This document shows positions 20,145 to 55,191 of a stretch of 64,000 nucleotides of DNA, piece by piece. The position numbers were made by a program, and so were the translations under genes. The notes beneath the pieces were generated by a model. That model was not told the origin of the DNA. It made no database searches and was given only the letters and a program-made list of their open reading frames with translations. This stretch comes from Hyphomicrobiales bacterium (GTDB lineage Bacteria; Pseudomonadota; Alphaproteobacteria; Rhizobiales; Rhizobiaceae): positions 124,001 to 188,000 of the forward strand of contig UBYX01000033.1 of assembly GCA_900469955.1 (NCBI GenBank), in the 5' to 3' direction. The stretch's first letter is position 1. Each line of letters opens with the position of its first letter.

Positions 20145-21611
20145 CTAAAACCTGATCCCCATCGCCTCAACCGCCATCACCGCCATGTGTCCCGCCAGAT
20201 ATCCAACAGGCCAGACAATCAGCACGCCGATTTCATAAGCGAGGTTGTTAAGCCGATTGCGCCTGTTGAAATAAAAAACGAAGGGCAGGATCGGCAGGCT
20301 GTGAAGAGCGATGGCCCAAAGAGCACCTTCGAATCCGAACCAGTAATAAGCGGCAGGCAAGCATACGAAGATCGAGATCGCACGGACAAGATTGAGGACG
20401 CTTTGGTTTCTTGGCTCGTTGACGGCCTGATAGACCGCCGACAGCATAAGAAACCGGCCCGCAATCAGACTGAAAGACAGGATTTCGATAATCAGAGCGG
20501 CATCCACGTATCGGTCGTCATACAGGAATTCGATGAGCATCCGTCCGCCGGAATAGACCGCGCCGGCGCTGCCGATAAATACGATATCGAAGGGCAGGCG
20601 CATTTTCAGGAAGACGGCAGGCAAATCTTCCGGTCGTTCCCGGGCAACTTTACTGAGAGCGGGCATAGCCACGCTGGTAAAAAGACGCCCTCCGGCCCCC
20701 TCGAGCATGGCAATGAGATTAAGGGCGAGGATATAGAGCCCTAGCATAGTGGGGCTGGTCCAGCCGGCCAGCAGAATGCGGTCGCCATTGGCAGCTATGA
20801 CCGTCAATATCGACGACAGCAGGATCCAGCGGCCAAAGCGGAGCAGATCGCCGAGGGCTTCCCGTTCCATCCGAAAGCGGTTCGAAGCTCCAGGCAGCCA
20901 GACATGGCTCAGGATGGTCGTCACCATTGAGGAGACGAGGGCCGAGACCACAAAAGACCAGATTGAGCCGGTGTAGAATGCCAGCAATACCGCGGTAGCG
21001 AGGCTTATGATTTGCGCCACGATCTCGATGACTGTCAGTCGTCCGAGATTGAGATGCCGATAGGCCGTGATGATCTTCGTGGATTGCAGGCCCATGATGA
21101 TGGTGCCGAACGATGCGGCGATGATGACGGTCGGAAGTTCAGGCGCGGTGTAGACCGAGCCTTCGGGAAACCAGTCGTATTTCGCTCCGTATCCGACGAT
21201 GATGGCGACCAGGATGCAGGTAAACCAGATCAGGCACCCATGTAGGAACTGGAGCACCCAGGCCGTATCGAGATAGGCTTGCTCGTCTCCCATCCTGCTC
21301 TGGATTGCAGCGGGCCTCAGTCCCAGATCCGACAGCATCGCTATCGAGACCTGCACCATGATGGCGACGCCCATTATTCCGAACATTTCGGGGATCAGCA
21401 GACGGGTGAGGATCAGGCTGCTTGCAATCCTGAGGAATTGCGGAAAGACATACCCTATCACCGTCCATCCGGCGGCACGCATGATGAGATTGCGGAAGCC
21501 GCGCGACCCCGAATCCGATGCCGTCGGATCCGGGTGAGTTCCGGATCCCTGATCATCTCCGGGTCCGGGAGGGTCCGGGTGCCAGTCGCGGGAAGTCACT
21601 GCTTCGGCCAA
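20145..21611 (-). CDS. Oligosaccharide flippase (MOP superfamily, Wzx-like)
   Basis: An integral membrane protein of 488 residues with about 12-14 hydrophobic segments, starting near residue 45 (AAGWTVIGYVFPQFLRIASS) and including LTRLLIPEMFGIMGVAIMV and DLGLRPAAIQSR, typical of the polysaccharide_synt_3 branch. It translocates undecaprenyl-diphosphate-linked repeat units to the periplasm. The gene starts 45 bases after the PKS stop on the same strand, so it may be cotranscribed with the PKS. Its natural role is EPS assembly with the Wzy-like protein at 53-55 kb; export of a PKS/NRPS product is a less likely alternative. Confidence 0.9.
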   Translation of the reverse strand: MAEAVTSRDWHPDPPGPGDDQGSGTHPDPTASDSGSRGFRNLIMRAAGWTVIGYVFPQFLRIASSLILTRLLIPEMFGIMGVAIMVQVSIAMLSDLGLRPAAIQSRMGDEQAYLDTAWVLQFLHGCLIWFTCILVAIIVGYGAKYDWFPEGSVYTAPELPTVIIAASFGTIIMGLQSTKIITAYRHLNLGRLTVIEIVAQIISLATAVLLAFYTGSIWSFVVSALVSSMVTTILSHVWLPGASNRFRMEREALGDLLRFGRWILLSSILTVIAANGDRILLAGWTSPTMLGLYILALNLIAMLEGAGGRLFTSVAMPALSKVARERPEDLPAVFLKMRLPFDIVFIGSAGAVYSGGRMLIEFLYDDRYVDAALIIEILSFSLIAGRFLMLSAVYQAVNEPRNQSVLNLVRAISIFVCLPAAYYWFGFEGALWAIALHSLPILPFVFYFNRRNRLNNLAYEIGVLIVWPVGYLAGHMAVMAVEAMGIRF

Positions 21612-21656: not shown

Positions 21657-24600
21657 CTATGCAAGTTCGATGACCCGTTGAGGTTCAGCCCGTTCTCCGT
21701 CGCGAGCACGTGAGGTATCCGTTCTTGCCCCAGAGTTTGCCGCGGCGTCGGCCACGACTGCACGCATCCGCTCCGCGAGTACGCGGACATAAGGATCCAG
21801 GACCATGCTGTCGTGATCGCCCGGCACCTCCGAAACCCTCAGGGTGCCGACATGCTCGCTCCAGCCGTTGTCCGACAGCAGAATGGCACGGTTCTCCCTA
21901 AGGCAACGTCCTCCGCTGAGGCGATAGAAGACAGCTGGCTTGGGACGGAAGAGCGTGACCGCACCCGCATACGGTTTCACCTGATACTGGGAGGCCGCTC
22001 GTCTGAACGCCACCTCGATCTTTTCGTTGTTGAAATGCTCCGTCGCGCCGACCTGACGTTCAGCCTCCTGCTTGGCGAGACTTTCCGCCCGGGAGCGGCG
22101 ACGGTCGCCAAGATATTTCCCGAGATAATTCATCTTGTGGCGCCGGATGTCCTGCAGCTTCATCATTACCCGGTCGCGGAAGGCCAGTTCCGACTGCCTC
22201 GGCTGGGGCGTGTCCAGCATGACCACATGCGCAACCTGTTCTCCCGCCTCCACCAGCTGACGGGCAATTTCATAAGCGGCTATGCCGCCGCCCGAATATC
22301 CGGCGAGCAGGTAGGGCCCATGCGGCTGCACGGTCCTGATCTCGGCGATATAGTCGGTCGCCATCTCCTCGAAAGTGATATGCGGCTCACTATCCCCGTA
22401 AAGCCCGCGCGCCTGAAGGCCATAGACGGGCCGGTCCGCTCCCATGCACATCGCCAGATGGCGGAGGTTCAAGATGTTGCCGAACATGCCCGCGCAGATG
22501 AACAAGGGCGCTGCTTCAGCATTGCGGCCGGGATTCATCAATACCAGATGGAGCGGCTTGGCCATCGGGAGTTCCGTTGCGTTCGTTTCGGTCCGTACCG
22601 TTTCACTTCCTTGCGGTCGCTCGGCAGCAATGCGGGCCGCACATTGGGCAATAGTCGGCGCCTCGAACAACATCGAGATCGGCAAGTCCAGCCCATACTC
22701 TTTCTTGATCATGCGAAAGAGTCGAACTGCGATCAGCGAATGCCCTCCTACATCGAAGAAACTGTCATGAATGCCGATCTTGGCGATGCCGAGAAGCTCA
22801 CGCCAATACCCGGCTAGAGTCTCCTCGATCGGATCACGCGGCGCCACGAATTCGCTGTCGAGGTCAGGTCTTTCGAAATTGTCGCTCGTCGGCGCTGCCG
22901 GCTCGGCGGTCGTAGCAACCCAGTTCTGCAACAATTCGAGATCGATCGAACTGATGATCGGCTGCGGTTCTGACGTCCCCAGCGCACGTAGAAGCGCTGT
23001 GAAACCCTCTGCCGGGAGAATGCCGTTTCTTACCTGCGTTCCGAGCTTCAGCAGAGCTGGGGACGGCGTTGCATGCTTCTTGTGAGGAGCCGCCGGCACC
23101 TCCGCGTTGGATAATCCAAGTGCAACATCGCTCTCCAGCCGGCGCATGACGAACCGCTCGGCTTCGAAGACGAGATTACCTTGGCGATCCGTGATCATCA
23201 GATCGAAAGCGGCGTAACCGTCGCCGAGATCGCTGCTGTCGGAGAGGCGCACATGGCTGATGATCTGAGCCGGAAGCGACCTGTAAAGCACTACTCGTCC
23301 ATAGGCGGCAGGCGCCCAGAGGCTTGCCGCAGAGCTATAACCCTCGGCGAGTTCCAGAGCAAAGCCGGTTGCGATATCCAGCAACGCGGGATGCAGGACC
23401 GTGCCTTTCGCCAGGTCTTCCGCAAACAAGGGATCCAAACGCAATTCGGCAAGGGCTTCGCGCTTTTGGATTGCCACCGATTGAAGGACTGCCCAACGGG
23501 GGCCAAACCGGATGTGGTTCTCCTGCACCGTCCGCAACGTCTCGTTGCCAACGGCCACGCGCCTTTCTCCGAATGAAAGGGCCAAGGCCGGAACATCGAC
23601 GACGCGAGATTCGTGCGCTTCCCGGGGCGTGAACATTGCCTCGGCATGCTTGACGAAAAGGGCCGTCTCACCGCCTCCTGCCGGCCCAGCGGCAACGATC
23701 ACGCGAAAACGCTCTCCGACCGGTTCAAGCCGAACCCGCAGGGTCTTGGCGTCTCCGTCGGCAAACACCAGAGGCTTCAGAAAGACGAGGTCTTCTATAT
23801 CGGCGTGCAATGGCAATCCGTATTCCCGCGCGGCCTGCGTGATCAATTCAATATAGCCTGTTCCGGGCATGACGGCTTGACCTGAAACCAGCCGGTGTTC
23901 GTTCAGCATCCATTCGGTCTGGGGGCCGATCGTAGCCTCAAGCCACGGCGTTCCGGCCTCGTCCTCCGTCCAGCGTTGGAAAAACGGACCGGACGCCAAC
24001 CCGGCAACAGGCCGCACATGGTCTTGATCGACGGCCAGACCCAGAGCGCGGGCGGCGAGCCCAACCTCGTTCCAGACACCCCAATGAAGCGCGACCGTGG
24101 CCCGGTCGGTTCGGCGCGACCGGCTTTGGGCAAACGCATTGAGATAGGCATTTGCAGCTACGTAGTCGACTTGGCCGGCTCGCACGACGTCCGTGCTGGT
24201 GGATGAAAACATCAGGAAGAAGTCGAGTTTCACATTTTCGAAGACCGCATCAAGTACCGTCGTGCCAAGCACTTTTGGCGTCAGTACTCTGTCGATATGA
24301 TCCCGCGTTTTCGTCTGGATCAGGCCGTCATCCACCACGCCGGCTGCATGAAACACGCCGTTGATTTCGCCAAAACGAGCAAGCGACGCTTCGACCGCAT
24401 GTGCCATCTGCTCCGGGTTTCCGACGTCGCCCTGGAGATAAAGCACTTCTGCGCCCTTTTCCTCCATTGTCCGGATCGCCGAGATCGCCCTTCGGATATT
24501 GTCATGACCGTGAGTGCGTTCGTAGAAGTCCCAGTCTTCACGCTGCGGCAAAGCTATCCGCCCCACCAGGGCGAGCCGCGCATGGAACTGGCTCGCAAGC

Positions 24601-27600
24601 TCCCCAGCGAGCGCAAGAGCGACCTCGCTCAAGCCGCCGGAGACAAAATAGACACCATTCCGGCGAAGCATTGTTCCTTCCGCCGCTATCTCTCTTAACG
24701 GCATCCGTTGATGGATTTGGGTCCAGCGACGCCCGTTGCGGTAGGCAACCACCTCGGACCCGGGCTTGGCGTGAAGGTCTTCCCAAAGCTGCTCAACGAG
24801 CGTGGCCTCTTCCCGTGTCTCCTTCCCGGAACCTTTTCCTTTTCGACGGGAAAAGAAGCCCGTCGCGACGTCCTTGCCATCCTGCAGCAGGTCGACATCG
24901 ATCACCTTGACGGTAACCTCGGCCATCTCCTTGGGCATGACGAGGCCAGGGCCGAGGATCGTGGCCTTCTCAGGATAAGGCAACGCTTCATCGGCCACCT
25001 GTTGCATTCCGTTGCTCACGAGCGTGAAGTGAACCGCCGCGGTCCCGCCCGCATCACCCAAAGCTTGGGCGAGATGCAGCAGGCTGTCGAAACCGCATTC
25101 CTGATTGCGGTGGAAGAAGTTCGAACCAGGCCGGAAAGTCTCCTGCTGCGTGAGAAGCCACATGTGAACGATGCGGGTTGGAAGGCTCTTGTCGGCGGTA
25201 AGCCCGGCGATTAGCGCGTCATATCCCGCCCGGCCGAATTCCGGGCAAAGCATGTAGCTTTCTGCGTCATGTCGCACGAAGGCATCGCCCAGCGACACGG
25301 TGATGACGCGGTGGCCTTTCGAGCGGAGCTGCTCCACCAGGCGAAGACCAATCCCTCCCTCATCGAGGAAGAAAAGCCATGATCGGCAATCCTTCTCGTT
25401 GCCAGGCTCGTAATCGGCAAGCGTTCGTTTCCAGGCTGGACGATACCCCCACCGCTCGATATCCGGTTCCTTCGAGAGAATAAGCTCGGCAGCCTGCTGG
25501 CTGTTGGCGGCGACCGCGCGGTCGATGAAGAAACGCCGATGTTGGAACGGATAGGTCGGCAACCGGACGCGGCGCGGGGAGCGTCCCTCCCACATGCGGT
25601 CGATGTCGACGTCGACCCCCACGGCCCAGGCCCTGCCAACGGCTGAGAGAAAATGAAGTCTGTCGTCTGTATTCTCGTCCGGATGCGGCAGGCTGTTGAT
25701 GACCTGGTTCGCCGGGACCGAGCCTTGCGCCTTTGTCAGCGACGACAGGACGCGCCCAGGGCCGACCTCGACATAGATCAGCCCCGAATCGGCGGAAAGC
25801 GTCGCCATTCCGTCCGCAAAATGGACGGTCGAACGAAGGTGACCGACCCAATACATCGGGTCGGTCGCCTCTTCGGCGCTAAGCGGCAAGCCCGTACGAT
25901 TCGATAGGATCGGGATTGTCGGAGCGCGAAGAGCAATACTACGGAGGAGTGCCTCGAAAGGCTTGAGAATGGGATCAACCAGACGGGAATGCGCGGCGAT
26001 GTTGATCGGAACGCGCGTCGCATCGATGCCCTGCCCGGCCAGGATCACCCGGAACCTTTCGAGATCCTCGTTGAGGCCGGAGACGACGCAGAGAGACGGA
26101 GCATTGATCGAGGCCACATCGAGCGATGGGGGCAGCAGTTCTGCGAGCCTTTGCCGATCGATCGGCACGCTCAGCATCCCGCTCGGCCGAATTGTCTCGA
26201 ACAGCTTGCCCCGCAGATGCACGAGATGCACCGCATCCTGGAAGGACATCACGCCCGCCACACATGCCGCGGCATTCTCGCCCATGGAATGACCGATCAG
26301 AGCCTTTGGCTTGACACCCCACTCCATCCACAAACGAGCCAGGCCGATCTCCGCAATCAGGATCGCCGGGAGCTGGAGCGAGGGACGAAGGAAGGCTTCC
26401 GCTGCAACGGGGCTCCCCTCCACCAGCCAGGTTTCCCGGACCTGAGCCGCCACATCGGCAGGCAGGTAGGAAAGACCTTCATCGACGGTCGAGCGAAATT
26501 GGCGATCTTCCTCATAAAGCCGCTTGGCCATGCCCACGTATTGAACGCCACCACCGGGGAAAAGAAATACGGTGCCGGATTGAGCCGGTACATGCTGATG
26601 AACAAAGCCGCGGCTCGCGGCATTCGAAAGCGCCGCAATGGCATCCTCCCGATTGCGGACAGCGAGCACCATGCGATGATCGAAATGTCTGCGACCGTGG
26701 CGCAGGGTGTAACTGACGTCGTCCAGCGAAATATCCGACTTGCTCGATAATGCGGAAGCAAGCCGCTCCGTCATCGCATCAAGCGTCTTGCGCTGGCGGG
26801 CGGAAAGAAACAGCAGCAGCGGATCAACGCCATCGGCCTGCGAGCCTACCGTCTCACTTGCGGGAATGTAGCGCGCGGGAGCCTGCTCGAGAACGGCATG
26901 CGCATTTGTGCCGCCGACCCCGAGCGAATTCACGGCGGCGCGGCGCGGCCCGGATATCGGAGGCCACTTCAACAGCTTGTTGTTGACCCGAAACGGGCTT
27001 CTATCGAATTCGATCGATGGGTTTGGACGCTCGAAACCAAGTGTCGGCGGGATCTCCCCATGTTCGATCGCCAGGACCGCCTTGATGAGGCCGACGACGC
27101 CGGCGGCAGTGTCCAGGTGGCCGATATTCGATTTGACCGACCCGACATGGCAGAAGCCTGTTTTGTCGGTGCTCTGGCGGAATGCCGCGGTCAACGCCTC
27201 GATCTCGATCGGATCTCCCAGGAACGTACCGGTACCGTGGCATTCCACATATTGGATAGTCTCTGCCGCGACGCCGGCCAGCCCATGGGCTTCTAGCACG
27301 GCCTCCGCCTGTCCGCTGACGCTGGGCGCCAGATAGCCCGCCTTGCTGTTGCCGTCATTGTTGACCGCAGTTCCCTTGATAACGCCGTGAATGACATCGC
27401 CGTCGCGCAACGCATCGGAAAGTCGGCGGAGAACCACGACGCCGACGCCACTCCCGAATACGGTTCCGGCTGCACGGTGATCGAACGCACGGCAGTGTCC
27501 ATCCGGCGAGAGAATTTCTCCCTCCTGAAACAGGTAGCCGCGGCGGTGTGGAAACTCGATCGTGACGCCGCCGGCGAGCGCCATGTCACATTCACCGGAG

Positions 27601-28208
27601 ATGAGGCTCTGGCAGGCGTAGTGTGTGGCGACGAGCGACGTTGAGCAGGCTGTCTGCACGTTCACGCTCGGACCGCGCAGATCGAAGGTAAAGGATGCAC
27701 GCGTCGCGAGAAAATCCTTGTCGTTGCCCGTATGACGCAGCAGGAACATGCCTACCTGGTCGATAAGATTGCGATTGCTGCAGACATTGAAGAAGAAATA
27801 GCTACCCATGCCGCAACCGGCAAAAATGCCGACCGGACCGGAGTGGGCATGCGGGGTAGGGGTCCGGCCGGCATCCTCCATGGCCTCCCAGGCACATTCC
27901 AGAAACTGGCGGTGCTGAGGGTCCATGATAGCCGCTTCCTTCGGATTGAGCCCGAAGAATTCTGCGTCGAACATTTCCATGTCGGGAAGCTCGGCGCCGC
28001 GAGGGACATAGTTCGGATGATGAATGCGTCCGGGATCTTCTCCGGAAGCGGCCAGTTCCTCCGGTGAAAACGTGCGGATGGATTCCACTCCATCTCGCAG
28101 ATTCCTCCAGAACTCATCCACGTTTCGGGCGCCGGGCACTCTCAAAGCCATGCCGACAATAGCTATATCGCCAGCTGAAATCTGGTTGGCCCCTTCAAGC
28201 ATCGGCAC
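21657..28208 (-). CDS. Type I polyketide synthase, KS-AT-KR-DH-ACP-TE
   Basis: A single-module PKS of 2183 residues with its own release domain. The ketosynthase (about 12-440) has Cys188 in TACSTSL, His324 in ECHGTGT and His364 in NIGHLD. The acyltransferase (about 540-840) has Ser641 in GHSMGEN. An SDR-type ketoreductase follows (VSGGLSEVALAL near 1180, YVAANAYLN near 1347). A hot-dog dehydratase comes after it (NEHRLVSGQAVMPG near 1435, LHPALLD near 1605). Then come an ACP (GGHSL near 1820) and a thioesterase (GYSGGG near 1970, PGDHDSM near 2115). KR before DH is non-canonical, and the DH histidine box has one extra residue (H-x4-G-x4-P). The AT specificity box reads IAAHS, neither malonyl nor methylmalonyl consensus. 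Translation starts at GTG 28208 or ATG 28202. It is divergent from the NRPS. Confidence 0.93.
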   Translation of the reverse strand: MPMLEGANQISAGDIAIVGMALRVPGARNVDEFWRNLRDGVESIRTFSPEELAASGEDPGRIHHPNYVPRGAELPDMEMFDAEFFGLNPKEAAIMDPQHRQFLECAWEAMEDAGRTPTPHAHSGPVGIFAGCGMGSYFFFNVCSNRNLIDQVGMFLLRHTGNDKDFLATRASFTFDLRGPSVNVQTACSTSLVATHYACQSLISGECDMALAGGVTIEFPHRRGYLFQEGEILSPDGHCRAFDHRAAGTVFGSGVGVVVLRRLSDALRDGDVIHGVIKGTAVNNDGNSKAGYLAPSVSGQAEAVLEAHGLAGVAAETIQYVECHGTGTFLGDPIEIEALTAAFRQSTDKTGFCHVGSVKSNIGHLDTAAGVVGLIKAVLAIEHGEIPPTLGFERPNPSIEFDRSPFRVNNKLLKWPPISGPRRAAVNSLGVGGTNAHAVLEQAPARYIPASETVGSQADGVDPLLLFLSARQRKTLDAMTERLASALSSKSDISLDDVSYTLRHGRRHFDHRMVLAVRNREDAIAALSNAASRGFVHQHVPAQSGTVFLFPGGGVQYVGMAKRLYEEDRQFRSTVDEGLSYLPADVAAQVRETWLVEGSPVAAEAFLRPSLQLPAILIAEIGLARLWMEWGVKPKALIGHSMGENAAACVAGVMSFQDAVHLVHLRGKLFETIRPSGMLSVPIDRQRLAELLPPSLDVASINAPSLCVVSGLNEDLERFRVILAGQGIDATRVPINIAAHSRLVDPILKPFEALLRSIALRAPTIPILSNRTGLPLSAEEATDPMYWVGHLRSTVHFADGMATLSADSGLIYVEVGPGRVLSSLTKAQGSVPANQVINSLPHPDENTDDRLHFLSAVGRAWAVGVDVDIDRMWEGRSPRRVRLPTYPFQHRRFFIDRAVAANSQQAAELILSKEPDIERWGYRPAWKRTLADYEPGNEKDCRSWLFFLDEGGIGLRLVEQLRSKGHRVITVSLGDAFVRHDAESYMLCPEFGRAGYDALIAGLTADKSLPTRIVHMWLLTQQETFRPGSNFFHRNQECGFDSLLHLAQALGDAGGTAAVHFTLVSNGMQQVADEALPYPEKATILGPGLVMPKEMAEVTVKVIDVDLLQDGKDVATGFFSRRKGKGSGKETREEATLVEQLWEDLHAKPGSEVVAYRNGRRWTQIHQRMPLREIAAEGTMLRRNGVYFVSGGLSEVALALAGELASQFHARLALVGRIALPQREDWDFYERTHGHDNIRRAISAIRTMEEKGAEVLYLQGDVGNPEQMAHAVEASLARFGEINGVFHAAGVVDDGLIQTKTRDHIDRVLTPKVLGTTVLDAVFENVKLDFFLMFSSTSTDVVRAGQVDYVAANAYLNAFAQSRSRRTDRATVALHWGVWNEVGLAARALGLAVDQDHVRPVAGLASGPFFQRWTEDEAGTPWLEATIGPQTEWMLNEHRLVSGQAVMPGTGYIELITQAAREYGLPLHADIEDLVFLKPLVFADGDAKTLRVRLEPVGERFRVIVAAGPAGGGETALFVKHAEAMFTPREAHESRVVDVPALALSFGERRVAVGNETLRTVQENHIRFGPRWAVLQSVAIQKREALAELRLDPLFAEDLAKGTVLHPALLDIATGFALELAEGYSSAASLWAPAAYGRVVLYRSLPAQIISHVRLSDSSDLGDGYAAFDLMITDRQGNLVFEAERFVMRRLESDVALGLSNAEVPAAPHKKHATPSPALLKLGTQVRNGILPAEGFTALLRALGTSEPQPIISSIDLELLQNWVATTAEPAAPTSDNFERPDLDSEFVAPRDPIEETLAGYWRELLGIAKIGIHDSFFDVGGHSLIAVRLFRMIKKEYGLDLPISMLFEAPTIAQCAARIAAERPQGSETVRTETNATELPMAKPLHLVLMNPGRNAEAAPLFICAGMFGNILNLRHLAMCMGADRPVYGLQARGLYGDSEPHITFEEMATDYIAEIRTVQPHGPYLLAGYSGGGIAAYEIARQLVEAGEQVAHVVMLDTPQPRQSELAFRDRVMMKLQDIRRHKMNYLGKYLGDRRRSRAESLAKQEAERQVGATEHFNNEKIEVAFRRAASQYQVKPYAGAVTLFRPKPAVFYRLSGGRCLRENRAILLSDNGWSEHVGTLRVSEVPGDHDSMVLDPYVRVLAERMRAVVADAAANSGARTDTSRARDGERAEPQRVIELA

Positions 28209-28503
28209 GCCCCACCCCCGGATGAACGCGGCCCGAAGATGTCATCTGCAATGACCCTTGGGCTATGTTCCACTTCCCTTCAAAAATGTCCGCGAGCGTC
28301 CACTCGCCATCTTCAGTGTGCTGCCAGCGCCGACGCAATCGCAATTACGCCTTTGGAAGCCGGCATCATTCAAAAGGCGGAGATGCTGATGCCACCGGCG
28401 ATTCAAGCTTAGTCGCGATCATCCGGATGGCTGGCCTGGCGCATGTTGAATTTTGTACCGCCCGCCGGTTCTATCGGAGTTCCTTCGACGCAACAGAGCG
28501 GGG
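28209..28503. promoter_or_regulatory. Divergent promoter region between PKS and NRPS genes
   Basis: About 295 bases separate the two megasynthase genes and must carry both promoters. A perfect 10-bp palindrome CATCCGGATG at 28420-28429, about 75 bases before the NRPS start, is a possible operator. I see no Fur-like box by eye. The poly-G/C stretch just upstream of 28208 (GGGGGTGGGGC read on the minus strand) may serve as the PKS ribosome-binding site. Confidence 0.4.
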
Positions 28504-31500
28504 ATGAGCTTCATGGGCGAGTTGACGAGTGTTCTTGTTGGTGACGGGTCCTTGCTCGTCCAATGCGCTGAGATCCTTAAGGCGCGCGGACACAAGATTC
28601 AGACGATCGTCACGTCGAGCGAGCCGGTCAGACGATGGGCCGGCGTGGCTCAGATCCCCGTTGTCAGCCTCCATAGCGACTATGCTTCCAGCCTTGCCGA
28701 TATCTCGTATGACTGGCTTTTCAGCATCGCCAACTTGACCATCATTCCGCAGCCGGTTTGGCAACGCGCCCGCTGCGGGGCCGCTAATTTCCACGATGGC
28801 CTCCTACCGCAGATGGCGGGGCTCAACACGCCCGCATGGGCGATTCTGGAAGGTCACGACCATCACGGCGTGACTTGGCATGCGATCAATGAAGGGATCG
28901 ACGAAGGCGATATCTACGCCCAGCAGGGCTTCGATATTTCTGACGACGACACCGCACTCACCGTGAACACCAAGTGTTTCGAGGCTGGTATCGCAACCTT
29001 TTCTACGATGCTCGATGATATCGAGCAAAATGCCTTGACCCCACGCCGGCAGGATTTCGGCACCCGCGTTTATTATGAGCGCCTGAAGCGCCCGGCCGCC
29101 GCGGCAACTCTCGATTTCTCCCAGCCCGCAAAGACGCTTTCCCGCCTTGTCCGCGGTTTGGATTTCGGAAGCGGATATCTGAATCCACTCGCCACGCCTA
29201 AGGTTCGTCTCGGTGACCAAGTCTTCACCGTCGCACATTTCCGTGTGCTCGAGGGAGAAATGAACGGTGAGCCCGGCCTGGTCATGTCGGTTGGCGCCCA
29301 CGGCGTAACGATAGGAACTGCCGACGCACCCGTCCTGCTGGAAGCATTCCGGAAGGATGCCGCCGGCAAGGTTGCGCTTTCCTCAGTCTTGCGCCCCGGC
29401 GACCGGCTGCCGATCCTCGGCGAACGGGAAATGACCGCATTGTCGGAAACAACCGCAGAGCTCTCCCGACATGAAATCTTCTTCCGGCGATCGCTCGAAA
29501 CCTGCATCGACCTCTCCCTGCCGCAGGTCAAGGCGCCGGAGCAGGCGCCTGATATCCGCTCGAAATCCCTTTCTCTTCCCGCCGAGCTTGCCAGGCGTGA
29601 ACGGACGGCACTTCTCTTGTCCTTCCTGGCGCGCTTTTCAGGGCAGACGGGATTCGACGTCGCTTATACGAACGACGGTCTCGTGAATCTCTCAAAACGC
29701 CACCCCGGCTACTTTGCGTCGTCAGTGCCGCTGCACGTCGATACCGCAGGCCACCAGACAACAGATGATCTGGCGAGCGCGCTTGATCGGAAGTTGACGG
29801 AGATTGGTAAGCGCAATGGTTACTCCAGTGATCTTCCCCACCGTTATCCGGGCATTGCGACGCCGGACCTGACGATCGGCATCGTGGACACGAGCGATCT
29901 AAGCCAGGCCGGAGGGATAGCGGGATGTGCGTTGACCTTCCGGCTAGCGGAGAACGGCACCGACCTTCACTATGACCGGACGCGCATCGACGACCGGCAG
30001 GTAGAGGATCTGGTAAAGGCACTACACGTTCTGGCCGCTGCGTTCAAAACCGGTGCCGTGCTGCAGGATCTGCCTTTGCTGTCGGATGCAGACGCAAACG
30101 TCATCCTGTACGATTGGAACGCGACGGAGCGGGAATACGAAACGACGGCCTGCGTTCACGAACTCATCGAACGTCAGGTTGAGCGCACGCCCGGCGCGGA
30201 AGCTATCGCGTTTCGCGGTAGCACGCTGACCTACCGTGAAATGGACGAGCGAGCGAACCGGATCGCCCAAGCGCTTATTGCCCAGGGTGTGGGACCGGAT
30301 GTCAGCGTCGGTCTTTATCTGCCGCGATCGGTGGATCTCGTTGTCGGCGCCCTGGCCATCATGAAGGCGGGTGGCGCCTATATTCCTCTCGATCCGCATT
30401 TCCCCGCTGATCGGCTGGCATTCATGATCGCGGACAGCGGTGCGAAACTCGTCTTGACCGAGCGAAGCCTGGCGAAGTCGCCAATTCTCGCTGGGGCCAA
30501 CTTCCTTTGCGTCGACGATATTCTCAGAAGCAATGCATCGGTCGAACGTCCGAGGAGCGGAGTGGCCTCGAACAATCTTGCCTATGTCATCTATACGTCC
30601 GGTTCGACCGGCCTGCCAAAAGGCGTGATGATCGAACATCGAAACGTCGTGAACTTCTTCGCCGGCATGGACGAGCGGGTTCCGCGTGAGACCGATCGGC
30701 GGAATGTCTGGCTCGCCGTCACCAGTCTTTCCTTCGATATATCGGTCCTTGAGCTTTTCTGGACACTTGCCCGCGGCTTTAAGGTCGTTATCCACTCGTC
30801 CGAAGTGATCGAGGCCAAAGCTGGAGGCGGCAGAACCGTTCCTGGAAGGACCACCAACCTCGATTTTGGCTTGTTCTACTGGGGGAATGACGGTGGCGCC
30901 GGGCCTGAAAAATACCGGCTGCTCCTCGAGGGGGCGAAATTCGCCGATGCCAACGGTTTTGATTCCGTCTGGACGCCAGAGCGGCATTTCCACGCATTCG
31001 GGGGTCCCTATCCGAACCCTGCGGTAACAGGCGCGGCAGTGGCCGCTGTCACGAAAAACCTCTCGATCCGCGCCGGTAGCTGCGTCCTGCCGCTTCATCA
31101 CCCGGTGCGGGTAGCCGAGGAATGGGCCATCATCGACAATCTCAGCAATGGCCGGGTCGCTCTTGCCTTCGCCTCGGGCTGGATGCCGGAGGATTTCGTC
31201 CTCCGGCCGGAAAACGCGCCGCCGAAGAACAAGGCCAGCCTGGTCCGCGACATCGAAACCGTCCGTAAATTGTGGCGGGGCGACAAGGTGGATTTTGATT
31301 TCGGCGGCGGCACGGTGGCCGTGGTGACCCAGCCTCGGCCCGTTCAAAAGGAGCTTCCCGTCTGGCTGACGACAGCGGGCAACCCTGAAACCTATCGGGA
31401 GGCCGCAAGACTGGGAGCCAACGTGTTGACGCACTTGCTCGGGCAGTCGATCGAGGAACTTGCCGACAAGATACGGATATACAGGGAGACGCTTGTCGAG

Positions 31501-33126
31501 GTTGGCCGTAACCCAAGCGACCACAAGGTCACGCTGATGCTCCATACGCTTCTCGGAAACGAGCGGGAAGAGGTACGGGAATTGGCTCGCGGCCCGATGA
31601 AAGACTATCTACGCAGCGCTGCTGCACTGATCAAACAATACGCATGGGCATTCCCAGCCTTCAAGAAGCCGCAGGGCGTCGCCCAGCCGATGGATATCGA
31701 CCTCCAGTCGCTGGCCCCTGACGAGATGGACGCCATCCTGGAGTTTGCCTTCCTGCGCTATTTCGAAGACAGCGGCCTCTTCGGAACCGTCGAGGACGCG
31801 ATTGAACGATTGGCGGAAGTCAACGCAATCGGCGTCGACGAGATCGCCTGCCTCATCGACTTCGGTCTGCCCGACGATGTCGTGCTGGGACGGCTTCCGC
31901 TGTTGGCTGAAGTGGTGAAAGCGAGCAAAAATCCTGCGAGCGATGATCCGATCGAGAGCTTCGCCGAGGCGATCCGGAAGCATAGGGTTACGCATCTGCA
32001 GTGCACACCGTCGATGGCGCGCATGTTCATGATGGTCGATGAAGACAGGGCGGCGCTCAGCGACGTCCGGCACGTCTTTTTGGGCGGCGAAGCGTTGCAG
32101 GGTTCACTGCTCGCAGCCCTGCGAACGGTCACGGATGCAACCATTGAAAACATGTACGGTCCGACAGAGACGACCATATGGTCGTCGACATATACCGCCG
32201 GGCCTTCGATGGGCGTCGTTCCGATCGGCCGTCCGATTGCCAACACGCAACTTTATGTCCTCGATAGCACATTGAAACCAGTCCCGCCCGGCGATATCGG
32301 CGAGCTCTATATCGGCGGCGACGGGGTTGCGAGAGGGTATCTCAACCGCGAGCAACTGACCAACGAGCGCTTCCTTCAAAATCCCTTTGCGGAAGGCCGG
32401 ATCTACCGGACCGGCGACCTTGCCCGTTTCGACAGATATGGGGTCCTCCACTTCCTCGGGCGAACGGATCATCAGGTCAAGATCCGTGGCCACCGGATAG
32501 AACTCGGAGAGATCGAAGCTCGGATCGCGACATTCGCCGGCATCCGCGAGGCAGTCGTCGTGGCGCGCAAGGACACTCCGGGCGACGTGCGCCTTGTCGC
32601 ATACATCAGAACCGAGGGAACACAAGTCTCTGAACAGGACTTGCGGGCTCATGTTGCCGAAGCCCTGCCGGATGTGATGATTCCCTCGCATTTCGTCATG
32701 ATGGAGACATTCCCGCTGACGCCAAATGCCAAAGTGGACCGCAACAAGCTGCCTCTTCCCACGGAAAAGGTTTCCTCGCCCGCGGTCACATTCATTGAAC
32801 CATCGAACAACCTGCAGCGGGAGATCAGCGAAGTATTCGGCCGGGCACTCGGCATGGAGAAGGTCGGCATATTCGACAACTTCTTCGCCTTGGGAGGCCA
32901 TTCGCTCCTCGCTGTGCAGGTGCACCGGGAGATGAAGGTAAAGTTCGCACCTGACCTGACCATTACCGACCTCTTCCGCTTCCCGACGGTGGCTCTGCTG
33001 GCCGAGCACATCTCCGGCAAGGGAAAAGCGGAGTCGCAGCTGAGCAGGGTTTCGGAACGCGCCGCACTGCGCAGAAGCCTGATCGACCGACGCCTTACTT
33101 TGGTCGGTGCGGACACGAAGGTTTAG
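28504..33126 (+). CDS. NRPS: formyltransferase - half C - A domain with inserted luciferase-like monooxygenase - PCP
   Basis: A multidomain synthetase of about 1540 residues. Residues 1-300 form a complete methionyl-tRNA-formyltransferase-like unit (NFHDGLLP near 95, GIDEGD near 130, C-terminal subdomain around 195-290), which would N-formylate the bound substrate from formyl-tetrahydrofolate. About 310-545 resembles only the second lobe of a condensation domain, with no HHxxxDG. The adenylation domain starts near 550 (YVIYTSGSTGLPKG, then SFDISVLELFW at ~743). It is interrupted at ~785-1130 by an FMN-dependent luciferase-like monooxygenase (DFGLFYWGND, FDSVWTPERHFHAFGGPYPN, CVLPLHHPVRVAEEWA) and resumes to MYGPTETT, YRTGDLAR and NAKVDRNKLP. 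The PCP has GGHSLLA at ~1467. My hand-read specificity code (D-I-L-Q-F-G-M-I-W-K) resembles glycine codes. ATG 28513 has better ribosome-site spacing and is an alternative start. Confidence 0.93.
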   Translation: MSFMGELTSVLVGDGSLLVQCAEILKARGHKIQTIVTSSEPVRRWAGVAQIPVVSLHSDYASSLADISYDWLFSIANLTIIPQPVWQRARCGAANFHDGLLPQMAGLNTPAWAILEGHDHHGVTWHAINEGIDEGDIYAQQGFDISDDDTALTVNTKCFEAGIATFSTMLDDIEQNALTPRRQDFGTRVYYERLKRPAAAATLDFSQPAKTLSRLVRGLDFGSGYLNPLATPKVRLGDQVFTVAHFRVLEGEMNGEPGLVMSVGAHGVTIGTADAPVLLEAFRKDAAGKVALSSVLRPGDRLPILGEREMTALSETTAELSRHEIFFRRSLETCIDLSLPQVKAPEQAPDIRSKSLSLPAELARRERTALLLSFLARFSGQTGFDVAYTNDGLVNLSKRHPGYFASSVPLHVDTAGHQTTDDLASALDRKLTEIGKRNGYSSDLPHRYPGIATPDLTIGIVDTSDLSQAGGIAGCALTFRLAENGTDLHYDRTRIDDRQVEDLVKALHVLAAAFKTGAVLQDLPLLSDADANVILYDWNATEREYETTACVHELIERQVERTPGAEAIAFRGSTLTYREMDERANRIAQALIAQGVGPDVSVGLYLPRSVDLVVGALAIMKAGGAYIPLDPHFPADRLAFMIADSGAKLVLTERSLAKSPILAGANFLCVDDILRSNASVERPRSGVASNNLAYVIYTSGSTGLPKGVMIEHRNVVNFFAGMDERVPRETDRRNVWLAVTSLSFDISVLELFWTLARGFKVVIHSSEVIEAKAGGGRTVPGRTTNLDFGLFYWGNDGGAGPEKYRLLLEGAKFADANGFDSVWTPERHFHAFGGPYPNPAVTGAAVAAVTKNLSIRAGSCVLPLHHPVRVAEEWAIIDNLSNGRVALAFASGWMPEDFVLRPENAPPKNKASLVRDIETVRKLWRGDKVDFDFGGGTVAVVTQPRPVQKELPVWLTTAGNPETYREAARLGANVLTHLLGQSIEELADKIRIYRETLVEVGRNPSDHKVTLMLHTLLGNEREEVRELARGPMKDYLRSAAALIKQYAWAFPAFKKPQGVAQPMDIDLQSLAPDEMDAILEFAFLRYFEDSGLFGTVEDAIERLAEVNAIGVDEIACLIDFGLPDDVVLGRLPLLAEVVKASKNPASDDPIESFAEAIRKHRVTHLQCTPSMARMFMMVDEDRAALSDVRHVFLGGEALQGSLLAALRTVTDATIENMYGPTETTIWSSTYTAGPSMGVVPIGRPIANTQLYVLDSTLKPVPPGDIGELYIGGDGVARGYLNREQLTNERFLQNPFAEGRIYRTGDLARFDRYGVLHFLGRTDHQVKIRGHRIELGEIEARIATFAGIREAVVVARKDTPGDVRLVAYIRTEGTQVSEQDLRAHVAEALPDVMIPSHFVMMETFPLTPNAKVDRNKLPLPTEKVSSPAVTFIEPSNNLQREISEVFGRALGMEKVGIFDNFFALGGHSLLAVQVHREMKVKFAPDLTITDLFRFPTVALLAEHISGKGKAESQLSRVSERAALRRSLIDRRLTLVGADTKV

Positions 33127-33128
33127 CA

Positions 33129-33779
33129 ATGCTGCTCGAGGGCATATTTGATGCTTCCGTTTCGGTGGCGGAATCGACCTTGAGCGAAGACACCACGACG
33201 CTTTATCCGGAGGAGCGGGTAGCAATGGTCGGCGCGTACAAACGCCGGATACGGGAATTTACCGCCGGCCGATCCTGCGCTCGCCAGGCCATGAAGCAAT
33301 TGGGACTGCCCGAAATGGCGATCCCCATAGGGCCGGACCGGGCGCCGATCTGGCCGCTTGGCATCACCGGAAGTATCAGCCACTCGTCTACGCGATGCGC
33401 GGCCGCCGTTGCGCGGCATTCAGATGGTATCCACGCCATCGGCCTGGACGTGGAGGAGGAAACGCCGCTCGATGCGTTTTTTGCAGAAGAGATTTGCACG
33501 GCCCGCGAGCGCGACTGGCTTGATCAGCAACCGTCGGGCAGGCGCGGCGAGCTTCTGAAGGCAATCTTCAGCGCAAAAGAGTGCACCTATAAATGCCAGT
33601 ACCAGCTTACGAGAAGGATGTTCGGGTTTGAGACGGTGCACATCGAGCTAAGCCTCGCGGAAGAGGCCTTTGCGGCATATTTCCACGTCGATGTACCGCC
33701 TTTCCGGCTCTACGATCGCCTGAACGGAAGCATCCGGTTTCGTGACGGACATGTCGTCACGGGCATGATTGTCCGTTAG
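33129..33779 (+). CDS. 4'-phosphopantetheinyl transferase (EntD/Sfp-type)
   Basis: An enzyme of 216 residues that attaches the phosphopantetheine arm from CoA to carrier-protein serines, converting the ACP and PCP to holo form. The family signatures are in order: GSISHS at 81-86, GLDVEE at 105-110 (Mg ligands Asp107 and Glu109) and FSAKE at 147-151 followed by CTYK. Upstream are the family's basic CoA-binding residues (RIREFTAGRSCARQA). The ATG lies two bases after the NRPS stop, so it is almost certainly cotranslated and dedicated to the PKS, the NRPS and possibly the small ACP at 40.7 kb. Confidence 0.93.
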   Translation: MLLEGIFDASVSVAESTLSEDTTTLYPEERVAMVGAYKRRIREFTAGRSCARQAMKQLGLPEMAIPIGPDRAPIWPLGITGSISHSSTRCAAAVARHSDGIHAIGLDVEEETPLDAFFAEEICTARERDWLDQQPSGRRGELLKAIFSAKECTYKCQYQLTRRMFGFETVHIELSLAEEAFAAYFHVDVPPFRLYDRLNGSIRFRDGHVVTGMIVR

Positions 33780-33784
33780 GCACT

Positions 33785-34585
33785 TCAATACGGACCGAGC
33801 CGCTGCCCCCGTCCCGTCACCTCGTTGTAGAAAAGAGACGCCAGCGGCAGAACCGCGTGGACATATCTCCGCCACAACCTCTTTGGATCAGTGACGAGCC
33901 TGTGGAGCCATTCAAGACCGAGATGCTGCATCCACAGCGGCGCCCGCCTTTTTGTCCCGACGAGGAACTCCAGGGAAGCGCCCACACAGAACCCGATGCC
34001 CCTCGCTTCTGGATGACGCGACAATTCATAGGCTATCTTCTCGGCTTGGGGAGAGCCGATCGCGATAAAGACAAACCGTGCTTCGGCGCGAGCGGCGAAA
34101 TCGACGCACGCTCGCAGAGCCTCCTCGTTGGTCCACAGGCCCTGCGGTGGCAGGTGAGCACGGAACCTCACTTTGGGATACCGGAGACGGATATCGCGCA
34201 CGACCGTTTCATCGGACGCTATCAGCGTTATCAGGTCGCCATCTCGAATGACGGAGTTGAAGATGCTTGCGGTGAGATCTGATCCGGTAACGACAGGCAG
34301 TCTCAGGAAAAGTAACCGTGCAAGCCCGGCGATAGGACGGCTGTCACAAACGGAAAGCCACGCCTGCTGATAATAGCCCCTGATTTGCGCATTTCCCTGA
34401 AGCCGAACCACATGATCGACGTTGGGGGTCACCACGTAGCGGAACGCCATTCCGGAGTGGTTGTTGGCCACGAGGTCCAGCACCATTGCAGGCGTCAGGA
34501 GATCGAACGGTGTCCCCAGGAAACTGCGCCTGCCGCCCCGGCCGGGACGCTGCACTTCGTATGGCGGTGCTTCAATAACTGCCAT
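33785..34585 (-). CDS. WecG/TagA/CpsF family glycosyltransferase (GT26)
   Basis: A membrane-associated transferase of 266 residues that adds a sugar (ManNAcA, ManNAc, glucose or similar in known members) to a lipid-linked first sugar. Family motifs include VTPNVDHVVRL near residue 55, VCDSRPIAGLARLL, LPVVTGSDL, FVFIAIGSPQAEKIA near 175 and GASLEFLVGTKRRAPLWMQ near 205. It converges on the phosphopantetheinyl transferase gene with a 5-base gap. It probably catalyses the second step of the EPS repeat unit after the priming transferase encoded at 38 kb. Confidence 0.92.
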   Translation of the reverse strand: MAVIEAPPYEVQRPGRGGRRSFLGTPFDLLTPAMVLDLVANNHSGMAFRYVVTPNVDHVVRLQGNAQIRGYYQQAWLSVCDSRPIAGLARLLFLRLPVVTGSDLTASIFNSVIRDGDLITLIASDETVVRDIRLRYPKVRFRAHLPPQGLWTNEEALRACVDFAARAEARFVFIAIGSPQAEKIAYELSRHPEARGIGFCVGASLEFLVGTKRRAPLWMQHLGLEWLHRLVTDPKRLWRRYVHAVLPLASLFYNEVTGRGQRLGPY

Positions 34586-34866: not shown

Positions 34867-36069
34867 ATGTCGCATTACCTGTTGAATTCTGCAGCGATCC
34901 TGTTGTCTGTCGTCCTTTTGATCCCGACCGCCGTGCTTGCGGTAGAGTGTGTTGCCGGCAGCTTTCGGTCAGGCCGGAAATTGCAGCATCGGGAGATTCT
35001 AAGGCCGACGGTTGCGATCATCGTCCCTGCTCATAACGAAGAGCTGCAGATTCTTGACGCCGTGCGGAATATCCAAAGCCAGATGCGCAAGGGGGACCGA
35101 TTGATTGTGGTTGCCGACAATTGCAGCGACCTCACCGCTTCCCTTGCGCGCGAAGCTGACGCCGAGGTCGTTGAACGTTTCGACGCTGGCAATCGCGGGA
35201 AGGGATATGCGCTCGATGCCGGCATTCGGCATCTTGCAAAAGCGCCCCCGGACGTCGTTGTTGTCGTTGATGCCGACTGCTGGCTGGAGCCCGGAGCACT
35301 GGATGAACTGGCCTACATGACCGCTGCGACGAACAGGCCTTCGCAGTCCCGCTACCTGATGATCGCGCCGCGCAATGCGCGCATAAATCTTGCAGTCTCC
35401 GAATTCGCTTTTCTGCTCAAGAACCGCATCAGGCTCCTTGGACTTTCAAAGCTCGGCCTTCCAGCGCAGCTGACCGGGTCAGGTATGGCCTTCCCCTGGG
35501 CCGTATTGCAGAACGCGCAGCTTGCGAACGGCAATCTGGTGGAAGACATGAAACTCGGCCTGGACTTGGCCCGTGCGGGCCATGCCCCTCTCTTCTGCGA
35601 TGCGGCCGTCGTCAAGAGCACTTTCCCCTATTCCAGGGATGGTCTGCGCACCCAGGCGTCACGCTGGGACGCCGGACGCTTTGCGCTGACCCGATCGCTG
35701 CTGTCGGCATTGACATCCGCCGGCACCTTCAGGAAGAGAGATTATCTTGCCTTGGTGATTGACGCTCTGGTACCCCCGCTGACCTTGCAGGCGGCACTTC
35801 TTTCCCTGGCGCTTATGGCAAGTGCCGGCCTGGCGGCATCAGGCGCTCTCGATTTTCCGCTTTTGATCTGCATCGTAAATGTTCTGATCTTCAGCATGAC
35901 GTTAATTGCGATCTGGTGGTTTCACGGACGAACCGCGCTGCCGTTGCGCACCGTGATCCAGATTCCCGGATATGTGGCGGGAAAGCTGAAGCTCTATCCT
36001 CAGCATATCCTTGCACCTGTGAATGCCCAATGGGTTAGAACCAATCGAGACCGGCCGACGGGTGTGTGA
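34867..36069 (+). CDS. Processive-type membrane GT2 glycosyltransferase
   Basis: A GT2 enzyme of 400 residues with an N-terminal membrane segment (about 7-28) and two or three C-terminal ones (about 295-355). The catalytic series is complete: IIVPAHNEE, VVADNCSDLTA (first Asp), VVDADCWLEP (metal-binding DxD), NLVEDMKLGLDL (catalytic ED) and QASRWD, the variant of the Q-x-x-R-W motif. This pattern fits an inverting beta-glycosyltransferase using a UDP-sugar at the inner membrane in EPS assembly. It faces away from the WecG-like gene and converges on the GMC oxidoreductase gene. Confidence 0.88.
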   Translation: MSHYLLNSAAILLSVVLLIPTAVLAVECVAGSFRSGRKLQHREILRPTVAIIVPAHNEELQILDAVRNIQSQMRKGDRLIVVADNCSDLTASLAREADAEVVERFDAGNRGKGYALDAGIRHLAKAPPDVVVVVDADCWLEPGALDELAYMTAATNRPSQSRYLMIAPRNARINLAVSEFAFLLKNRIRLLGLSKLGLPAQLTGSGMAFPWAVLQNAQLANGNLVEDMKLGLDLARAGHAPLFCDAAVVKSTFPYSRDGLRTQASRWDAGRFALTRSLLSALTSAGTFRKRDYLALVIDALVPPLTLQAALLSLALMASAGLAASGALDFPLLICIVNVLIFSMTLIAIWWFHGRTALPLRTVIQIPGYVAGKLKLYPQHILAPVNAQWVRTNRDRPTGV

Positions 36070-38010: not shown

Positions 38011-39450
38011 ATGTTCACGCAAACGGAACCAAGTGTAGGCAGATACGACACGCCGGTTGATCAGCCACGTCAACGGAGTGGTCTCGAATATCGTAGCATC
38101 GCCTATGTCGCTGCGGCGGCGGATTTCCTTTATCTCCTCGGCGCATGCGCTATCGGTTTCACGGGTTATCAATATGTGGCTTTCGGTTCAGCGCCCGATC
38201 CGTCGCTTTTCATTGGGCTCGGGCTCGTCATGTCGACGATCTTCCTGCTGGCGATGCACAGTACCCAAGCCTACAGCCCCGAAAGCATACAGCTCCTCAG
38301 GCCGCAGATCCGGCTGATCTGCATCCTGGTTCCGAGCACATTTGCTTTCCTGCTGACCGTGATCTTTTTCCTGAAAATCGGCGAGACTTACTCTCGCGGT
38401 GCAATGCTCATCACAGCGGTCATCTCACTGGCCGGTCTGATCTCCATGCGTTGTTTCTGGCACTGGTATCTGCCGTCAGCGACTGCTGCAGCCTATTTCA
38501 GGATGAGGCGCGTCCTCCTGGTCTGTCACGAGGATTTCGCTGTCGAGCAATGGCGGCATGAGGCCATGGCGAGCGGTATGAGCCTCGTTCAGACGCTACA
38601 TCTGTCCGGCGACAGCCTGCTCTCGGCCAGCGCCTTGGAACGCCTATGGCAAAGCGAAGCGGATCATCTTGATGAGGTTTTCATCGTTTGGCGCGATCCA
38701 AATGTCGCCAACCTGGAGCTTTATCTCAGCGAGCTCCGCCGCTCGGTATTGCCCGTCAACGTCATCTTCGACGGAGTGGTCGGCCGGCTCACCAACGCTC
38801 CGGCCCGCAAGCTCGGCAGCATGACTGCCTTCCAGACACAACGCCCACCCCTCAGCCTCTATGAACGCGGCACGAAGAGGGCCTTCGATATCGCCTTCTC
38901 CCTCTTCGCCATCGTTTCACTGCTTCCGCTTCTGGTGGCGGTGGCAATCGCGATCAAGCTGGATTCCAAGGGGCCCATCCTCTTCAAACAGGTCCGCAAA
39001 GGATATGGCGGCCGGGCTTTCCGCATTCTCAAGTTCCGCAGCATGACGGTAATGGAAGACACCGGCGACATTCGCCAAGCGACCAGAAATGATCCGCGGG
39101 TAACCCGAATTGGAGCGATCATTCGAGGATCGAGCATTGATGAACTGCCGCAATTCTGGAATGTCCTTCGAGGTGAAATGTCGATCGTCGGTCCGCGCCC
39201 GCATGCGCTGGCCCATGACGCCCTCTATGACTCGCTGATCGCTAAATACGCCTACAGGCGGCATGTCAAACCGGGACTGACGGGATGGGCTCAGATCAAC
39301 AATTGCCGCGGTGAGACGCCGAATATCGAAAAGATGGAAGAGCGTATCTTCCATGATCTCTGGTATATCAACAACTGGTCGTTCTGGCTGGACATGAAGA
39401 TCGTAGTCCGGACGTCGATCCAGATCTGGGATATCGGCAAAGCCTATTGA
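38011..39450 (+). CDS. Polyprenyl glycosylphosphotransferase (EPS priming transferase, WcaJ/PssA-like)
   Basis: The initiating enzyme of EPS repeat-unit synthesis, transferring a hexose-1-phosphate from a UDP-sugar to undecaprenyl phosphate. Of 479 residues, the N-terminal ~280 hold four or five membrane segments and a CoA-binding-like domain. The C-terminal bacterial sugar-transferase domain starts at KRAFDIAFSLFAIVSLLPLL and contains LFKQVRKGYGGRAFRILKFR, SIDELPQFWNVLRGEMSIVG, PRPHALAHD and KPGLTGWAQIN. Length and order match the WcaJ branch rather than short ExoY. It stops six bases before the convergent decarboxylase gene. Confidence 0.94.
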   Translation: MFTQTEPSVGRYDTPVDQPRQRSGLEYRSIAYVAAAADFLYLLGACAIGFTGYQYVAFGSAPDPSLFIGLGLVMSTIFLLAMHSTQAYSPESIQLLRPQIRLICILVPSTFAFLLTVIFFLKIGETYSRGAMLITAVISLAGLISMRCFWHWYLPSATAAAYFRMRRVLLVCHEDFAVEQWRHEAMASGMSLVQTLHLSGDSLLSASALERLWQSEADHLDEVFIVWRDPNVANLELYLSELRRSVLPVNVIFDGVVGRLTNAPARKLGSMTAFQTQRPPLSLYERGTKRAFDIAFSLFAIVSLLPLLVAVAIAIKLDSKGPILFKQVRKGYGGRAFRILKFRSMTVMEDTGDIRQATRNDPRVTRIGAIIRGSSIDELPQFWNVLRGEMSIVGPRPHALAHDALYDSLIAKYAYRRHVKPGLTGWAQINNCRGETPNIEKMEERIFHDLWYINNWSFWLDMKIVVRTSIQIWDIGKAY

Positions 39451-51883: not shown

Positions 51884-52107
51884 TCCACAAGCGCCCCTCT
51901 TTCTGCTTGCTGATCGCCAGCAGCCTCTCGTATTTGTATAGCAAAAACATTGACATAGACTTAGCCCCACAAAGAGCTTAGTGACCACGCTGCGGCTTCC
52001 ACCAAAGGGGTAAATTTACAGCGCCGGTGGTGGCTTTTAAAAATAGGAGACACGTGGACCGAGAGAAACAGGCGAGGCCGCGTCGGCAAGGCCACCGGAG
52101 GCACCGA

Positions 52108-54771: not shown

Positions 54772-55191
54772 GGCTAGAGCCCGCGTATCAAAAAGATAAC
54801 CGGAACAATAATTCGCCCCTGGCGGATTCGCGGCATGTGAACGCCCCTCGCTGCTGCGCAAGAATTGCGCATTCCCGGTTCAGGCTACACGCGCGGATCA
54901 TCTTCCCCCACCTGTCCAAAAGAATGAGCGCCTAGCACGATAGGTGATTGCCATCCCCCTTCGGATTGCTTGCTCGAAATCGCCAAACAGCGTGGCGCCG
55001 GGCGCTGTGTCTGCAATGAGGGCTGAAGGTAGATAAACATGGGCAAATATCACGGTGACCGCCGTGGCGATCATACGTCAAAGTGATGATCTGCTGCGCA
55101 CTCCATAACGCAGTAAAAATGCAGTATCGTCCTTCGTAATCAATACCTATTTGATCACGTTTACTTAAGAATCGTCACGGCGGCGCCAACA
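54772..55191. promoter_or_regulatory. Divergent intergenic region with TGCGCAA dyad
   Basis: About 420 bases. A perfect dyad TGCGCAA-gaa-TTGCGCA occupies 54855-54871, some 85 bases upstream of the polymerase start. It shares its core with the TTGCGCAA palindrome at 37855-37862 before the priming transferase, so a common regulator is possible. The last 100 bases before 55192 are A/T-rich and probably hold that gene's promoter. No convincing gene is present. Confidence 0.45.

Follow-up and report, generated by a model that had tools for sequence, protein, structure and literature searches.

What does a nonribosomal peptide synthetase (NRPS) build when its adenylation (A) domain is interrupted by a monooxygenase (MOX) and preceded by a formyltransferase (FT), and where does the product go? 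The question is raised by a gene at 28504..33126 (+) of the window, by which we mean the whole 64,000-nt stretch analysed, coordinates being counted from its first letter. A sequence-only reading had described the gene, likened its insertion to that of MtaG/MelG modules, the MOX-bearing glycine modules of myxothiazol and melithiazol, and suggested a possible metal-chelating product.

Domain organisation of the interrupted synthetase

The reading frame (28453..33126, +) is open throughout, with a TTG start at 28453 and an ATG at 28504, the upstream TTG being also a possible start. The NRPS has the architecture FT-C'-A(MOX)-PCP, where C' is the C-terminal half of a condensation domain and PCP a peptidyl carrier protein; this architecture is real, and a chance or frame artefact was ruled out, its conservation being far beyond chance. 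The features of the gene and its downstream neighbour are:

28504..33126, +, NRPS FT-C'-A(MOX)-PCP, 1540 aa (Pfam and NCBIfam domains, homologous loci)
28522..29403, +, FT domain (PF00551/PF02911; N95, H97 and D133 conserved)
29491..30108, +, C', without HHxxxDG (hhalign 96.2%, template 258-451)
30136..30813, +, N-terminal part of the A domain, ending just past A4 (PF00501; Foldseek to 1amu)
30865..31914, +, inserted luciferase-like MOX, predicted FMN type (TIGR04020, 471 bits; PDB 6ket, PuwE)
31936..32751, +, remainder of the A domain, A5 onward (PF00501/PF13193; the code DILSFGMIWK spans both A parts)
32821..33012, +, PCP (PF00550; Ser1467)
33129..33779, +, 4'-phosphopantetheinyl transferase (PF17837, PF01648)

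A Pfam search of the 1540 aa from 28504 agreed with the FT, A and PCP domains claimed beforehand, locating PF00551 at residues 58-164 (E 2.5e-16), PF02911 at 201-286 (21.8 bits, threshold 21.1), PF00501 as two parts flanking PF00296 (796-1113, E 2.9e-48), PF13193 at 1336-1410 and PF00550 at 1440-1503. No thioesterase (TE) was detected by Pfam in the NRPS protein, the TE being on the partner polyketide synthase (PKS) described below. By sequence, Pfam and NCBIfam, the insert lies downstream of FDISVLELF (which starts at residue 744) and upstream of YGPTETT, hence between A4 and A5, as had been proposed, and as is described for the myxothiazol and melithiazol modules (PMC10204066, PMC11342130).

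The luciferase fold and TIGR04020 membership of the insert were also borne out. The NCBIfam model matched residues 788-1137 over positions 1-340 of 341 with 471 bits (cut-off 244.45), and scored 475.5 bits in a search of the window's own genome. The best solved relative was PDB 6ket (PuwE; 362 bits, TMt 0.90 in the fold match), whose title names a flavin-utilizing monooxygenase, and 95 of 355 MOX positions were at least 97% conserved. The domain is thus predicted to be an FMN-type oxygenase, with both FMN binding and oxygenation predicted. Structure alignments comprised the window together with 29 (A1) and 28 (A2) of the 80 loci. The predicted model of A plus MOX had good local confidence (mean pLDDT 82.8) and a pTM of 0.53, for which reason the placement of MOX relative to A was left unused.

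For the FT domain, the best PDB matches were FMT and ArnA, and LgrA chains matched the FT by sequence and the A domain by fold. In an alignment of the window with the best 80 of 122 relatives, N95, H97 and D133 were kept in 78, 79 and 78 of 81 rows, departures including gaps and L077, a Chloroflexota locus with no Pfam FT match. With this catalytic set intact in the window, as anticipated, the fold predicts that the domain formylates the PCP-bound amine.

Between FT and A, Pfam gave no match at E 0.01, a scan for HHxxxDG was empty, and a single-sequence PDB search returned nothing up to E 1. Profile-profile comparison (hhalign) with condensation domains of three FT-less relatives, by contrast, gave a 96.2% probability (E 2.5e-9), the alignment covering the C-terminal half alone (template columns 258-451; template HHxxxDG at 139-145), in keeping with the proposed second lobe without the motif. 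A fold search with the FT-C' model returned formyltransferase-type folds, so that C' was barely probed by fold. Modules of the MtaG/MelG type have a complete condensation domain with HHxxxDG, whereas the window NRPS has the half domain only. The FT-C' head is not special to the MOX-bearing family: at E 1e-12 it was found in 139 plasmid records, and many of the matches listed are rhizobial or Mycetohabitans NRPSs without monooxygenase annotation.

Conservation and predicted substrate

The genome collection yielded 122 confirmed relatives, of which the best 80 were kept (42-96% identity, many of them metagenome-assembled); they span Alphaproteobacteria, Myxococcota, Chloroflexota and Planctomycetota. 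In 71 of these 80 the match begins no later than residue 10 and ends no earlier than residue 1494, the other nine being truncated or, as in L077, different at the N-terminus. Ser1467 of the PCP is present in 76 of the 81 aligned rows, with gaps in five. Median identity was highest for MOX (76%), followed by A (60-62%) and FT (45%), and lowest for C' (29%). Counting the window's genome, FT-C' was found at E 1e-40 in 14 of 199 genomes of the family sample and 10 of 385 of the class sample. Six of the 14 FT-positive family genomes, plus the window's own separately, were searched with TIGR04020 at E 1e-60; four of the six matched, and G045 and G086 had no match. The FT-C'-A modules of these two genomes (L131 in G045, L132 in G086) both run off a contig end, and the FT of L132 lacks the aspartate.

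Code positions in the A domain were set by motif, in GrsA numbering, and not from a substrate-bound structure. The window code is DILSFGMIWK, and DILSxGMIWK (x being F, M, L, Y or H) is found in 75 of the 81 rows, the other six comprising three gapped at the last code position and three with one change. Four glycine-activating domains with MOX have the code DILQLGMIWK in common (PMC12283262). The window code departs from it at positions 278 and 299, which leaves 8 of 10 equal, and the 15 DILSLGMIWK rows of the 81-row alignment agree with it at 9 of 10. Glycine is therefore strongly predicted as the substrate. FT-less relatives, each with a nested MOX, have the codes DILSMGMIWK (Nostoc L093), DILSLGMIWK (Anaerolineae L077), DILSLGMVWK (Deinococcus L092) and DMVSLGMVWK (Streptomyces L091). 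The codes of the two modules without MOX, L131 and L132, are unrelated to the glycine type, one being readable at 8 of 10 positions where the contig end cuts it, which is consistent with the glycine code accompanying MOX.

Among the FT-less relatives, L077, L091 and L093 contain a complete condensation domain with HHxxxDG. In L077 the order is A-MT-PCP-C-A(MOX)-PCP, preceding a homologous PKS, and in a MOX tree of 46 rows L077 groups with the FT-bearing Chloroflexota loci L061 and L071 (support 100/98; internal order weak, 81/19). From this layout and placement, FT on the one hand and an upstream module plus condensation domain on the other appear to swap places ahead of the same oxidising module, and the formyl group may thus be read as a substitute N-acyl group.

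A polyketide synthase partner in an exopolysaccharide locus

The partner PKS, the polysaccharide surroundings and the wide conservation were absent from the sequence-only reading. The surroundings comprise:

21657..28208, -, partner PKS, KS-AT-KR-DH-ACP-TE (Pfam; divergent from the NRPS)
16175..17293, +, companion protein (homologues at NRPS loci)
20145..21611, -, Wzx-type flippase (PF13440/PF01943)
33785..34585, -, WecG/TagA/CpsF glycosyltransferase (PF03808)
34867..36069, +, GT2 glycosyltransferase, EpsU-like (below the EpsU model's cut-off)
38011..39450, +, initiating undecaprenyl-phosphate sugar transferase (PF02397, TIGR03025)
46022..47275, +, Wza-type polysaccharide export protein (PF02563)
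50669..51988, -, GT4 glycosyltransferase, EpsE-like (below the EpsE model's cut-off)
53200..54861, -, Wzy-type polymerase/O-antigen ligase (PF04932)

Of the 58 loci that reach 20 kb, 53 have a PKS match of at least 800 bits next to the NRPS; such a match was missing from the flank covered in L022, L024, L050, L064 and L076, of which L064 has a PKS fragment at the locus edge. Matches above 1000 bits were found in 62 loci, and 55 of these 62 PKS reading frames (2000-3200 aa) were aligned with the window. Across the 199 family genomes, the PKS was detected at E 1e-150 in 11 of 14 FT-positive versus 8 of 185 FT-negative genomes, and all eight matches above 2500 bits lay in FT-positive genomes. In a second subtype (L089, L133, L134), the protein that follows FT-C'-A(MOX)-PCP is a PKS-NRPS about 3100 aa long. 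On the Chloroflexi contig of L071 (4145-9667), the NRPS-PKS pair lies downstream of an ABC uptake system and a class III aminotransferase.

Active-site motifs of KS, AT and TE are present in the window PKS; its DH retains the His and Asp, with the first motif one residue longer. In this PKS and those of its nearest relatives the nucleotide-binding motif of KR is degenerate (GGLSEVA in the window, with GGLS instead of GGLG), and S occupies this glycine position in 16 of 56 aligned PKSs, which makes reduction by the PKS doubtful and the reduction state uncertain. A search of the window's genome (completeness 100) for the condensation family PF00668 gave nothing at E 0.001; a peptide bond is therefore unlikely, and a peptide product was rejected, although a strongly diverged condensation domain may be present. 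The genome has further PP-binding proteins, including a 2506-aa multidomain synthase on another contig. Together with the PKS domain set, the lack of a PF00668 match suggests as the simplest product one glycine plus one malonyl unit, although the PKS may iterate beyond one extension.

The window holds a Wzx/Wzy set (flippase, polymerase, export protein, initiating transferase, a WecG-type and several GT2/GT4 glycosyltransferases), and the NRPS-PKS pair sits within this exopolysaccharide locus. With 17 window genes as queries (the polysaccharide genes plus the companion protein), we compared 20 control windows with the 45 distant loci, meaning those of 20 kb or more that do not belong to the close Neorhizobium/Rhizobium group. 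At least two homologues were found in 40 of the 45 and in none of the controls, and at least one in 42 of 45 versus 1 of 20, the controls being 20-kb windows from two FT-positive genomes and somewhat shorter than the loci. The Chloroflexota loci L061, L071 and L077 had no homologue of the 17 genes, and L042 and L069 had one each. Annotated records of Shinella, Aminobacter, Ruegeria and two Paracoccus likewise place the NRPS-PKS among polysaccharide genes, the two synthase genes of Ruegeria and Paracoccus being separated by a GT2 gene, and a Deinococcus plasmid carries together an A(MOX) NRPS without Pfam FT, a PKS and polysaccharide genes. An Aliiroseovarius stretch with FT-MOX and PKS-NRPS has no annotated glycosyltransferase or flippase; two family genomes have a similar subtype.

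Homologues of the companion protein occur at 22 of the 58 NRPS loci that reach 20 kb, and at none of the 20 controls. It had no match in Pfam, NCBIfam or PDB. Its GHSLIDN and DVHLTDAG stretches resemble those of SGNH hydrolases, making it a candidate acyl-transfer or esterase protein. The locus also contains a second carrier-protein unit (39457-42574, -). An acyl carrier protein of 77 aa is encoded there at 40710-40943, together with an acyl-CoA ligase and a PLP decarboxylase that score below the thresholds of their models (TIGR03098, 533 bits for a threshold of 592; TIGR03099, 361 bits for 478); both models carry names of exosortase-associated loci.

Proposed pathway and alternatives

Initiation by FT-A-PCP modules is described for LgrA (linear gramicidin), the anabaenopeptilides and kolossin A (PMC8949500). 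The window NRPS resembles LgrA-type modules in its N-terminal FT with the N/H/D set followed by A and PCP, and differs from them in the half condensation domain between FT and A, the nested MOX, the glycine code and the PKS partner. With the myxothiazol and melithiazol modules it shares the A4-A5 insertion, a glycine-type A domain and a flavin MOX, which there hydroxylates the glycine Cα (PMC10204066, PMC11342130); it is unlike them in having FT and half a condensation domain, an initiation position, a PKS downstream and no TE. Module 4 of SolF (solanimycin) also combines a glycine A domain with a flavin monooxygenase, but the insertion is at A8-A9 and the module is an elongation module of an antifungal; no FT is mentioned, the word 'formyl' being absent from the main text (PMC10204066). 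The PuwE monooxygenase differs again: accompanied by an aminotransferase, it occupies the stretch from a PKS to an NRPS module, outside any A domain (PMC4219810).

On these grounds we propose, with about as much confidence as doubt, that the one-module initiation NRPS builds an oxidised N-formylglycyl starter for the partner PKS, which yields an acyl unit for the exopolysaccharide. Judging by its code, the A domain would activate glycine and load it on the PCP. The FT, from its fold and N/H/D set, would then formylate the amine with formyl-tetrahydrofolate, the formyl group replacing the peptidyl group delivered in the relatives by their complete condensation domain. By family precedent, the nested FMN-type MOX would hydroxylate the glycine Cα, giving N-formyl-α-hydroxyglycyl-S-PCP. 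The KS-AT-KR-DH-ACP-TE PKS would add one malonyl unit, might reduce and dehydrate it, and its TE would free a C4 formamido acyl unit, which would pass to the Wzx/Wzy exopolysaccharide, in the simplest case as an acyl substituent. The residue both N-formylated and oxidised that the sequence-only reading envisaged is thereby a likely product.

The product might instead be a diffusible signal or antibiotic that is never attached, its polysaccharide neighbours reflecting shared regulation or matrix-associated secretion. Release by a TE would suit this reading, as would the three Chloroflexota loci without query homologues, the Aliiroseovarius stretch, and the fact that no attachment enzyme was found; the glycosyltransferase gene that separates the two synthase genes in Ruegeria and Paracoccus and the retention of at least two query homologues in 40 of 45 distant loci argue against it, and we regard it as possible though doubtful.

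A second alternative, which we consider rather unlikely, concerns the C-N bond. In myxothiazol and melithiazol the peptidyl chain is joined to the glycine, the carbinolamide breaks after Cα hydroxylation, the glyoxylyl group stays on the carrier, and cleavage and a TE end the chain (PMC10204066, PMC11342130). By analogy, with MOX likewise at A4-A5 (PMC10204066), the bond may be lost at the window module: formamide would leave, the formyl group being a mere activating leaving group, and the PKS would turn the remaining glyoxylyl-S-PCP into a reactive C4 semialdehyde acyl unit. Those modules, however, terminate in a TE, whereas here a PKS comes next, and formyl-tetrahydrofolate spent on a leaving group would presumably be costly. 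Retention is favoured by L077, whose aminoacyl module with full condensation domain ahead of the MOX module and homologous PKS would serve no purpose were the bond broken every time; solanimycin B, moreover, retains α-hydroxyglycine with the chain extended (PMC10204066).

The formyl-hydroxamate advanced beforehand, in which MOX would oxidise the amine to give metal-chelating N-formyl-N-hydroxyglycine, has in its favour the FT and flavin monooxygenase in one module, probably acting on the same residue, but is very unlikely given the glycine-type code, the Cα target reported for MOX in glycine A domains, the polysaccharide context of the NRPS loci, and a Pfam scan of 43 window ORFs (part of the total) with no TonB-dependent receptor family. 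A siderophore cluster was rejected on the same scan and the exopolysaccharide surroundings.

Returning to attachment as an acyl substituent, a bolder extension, which we think unlikely, is that widespread matrix polysaccharides bear a C4 substituent made by this two-protein line: 4-formamido-4-hydroxy-crotonyl, or 4-oxo-crotonyl after formamide loss. If so, the group could, as a masked or free aldehyde, cross-link the matrix, and an assembly line would have polymer decoration as its product, with formyl substituting for the peptidyl chain needed by the glycine-oxidising domain.

Each part of this system is known. What appears new is how the parts are combined, how widely the combination is conserved, its pairing with a PKS and its place among polysaccharide genes, and the literature searched, as far as its excerpts extend, describes neither an FT plus MOX module nor an exopolysaccharide-linked PKS-NRPS of such kind. 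If the proposal is right, assembly-line chemistry serves to decorate a secreted polysaccharide of a soil bacterium, and one-module NRPSs usually filed under cryptic secondary metabolism fall within biofilm and matrix biology. The NRPS also offers a compact system for studying how an A4-A5 monooxygenase acts on glycine without a preceding peptide, and how FT and condensation domains substitute for each other. Annotated plasmid records name such NRPSs 'MupA/Atu3671 family FMN-dependent luciferase-like monooxygenase'. At one locus, in Paracoccus marcusii CP157 (L118, 7995-12586), the annotation divides the fusion into two overlapping genes, FT in one and the remaining domains in the other, a split either natural or from sequencing.
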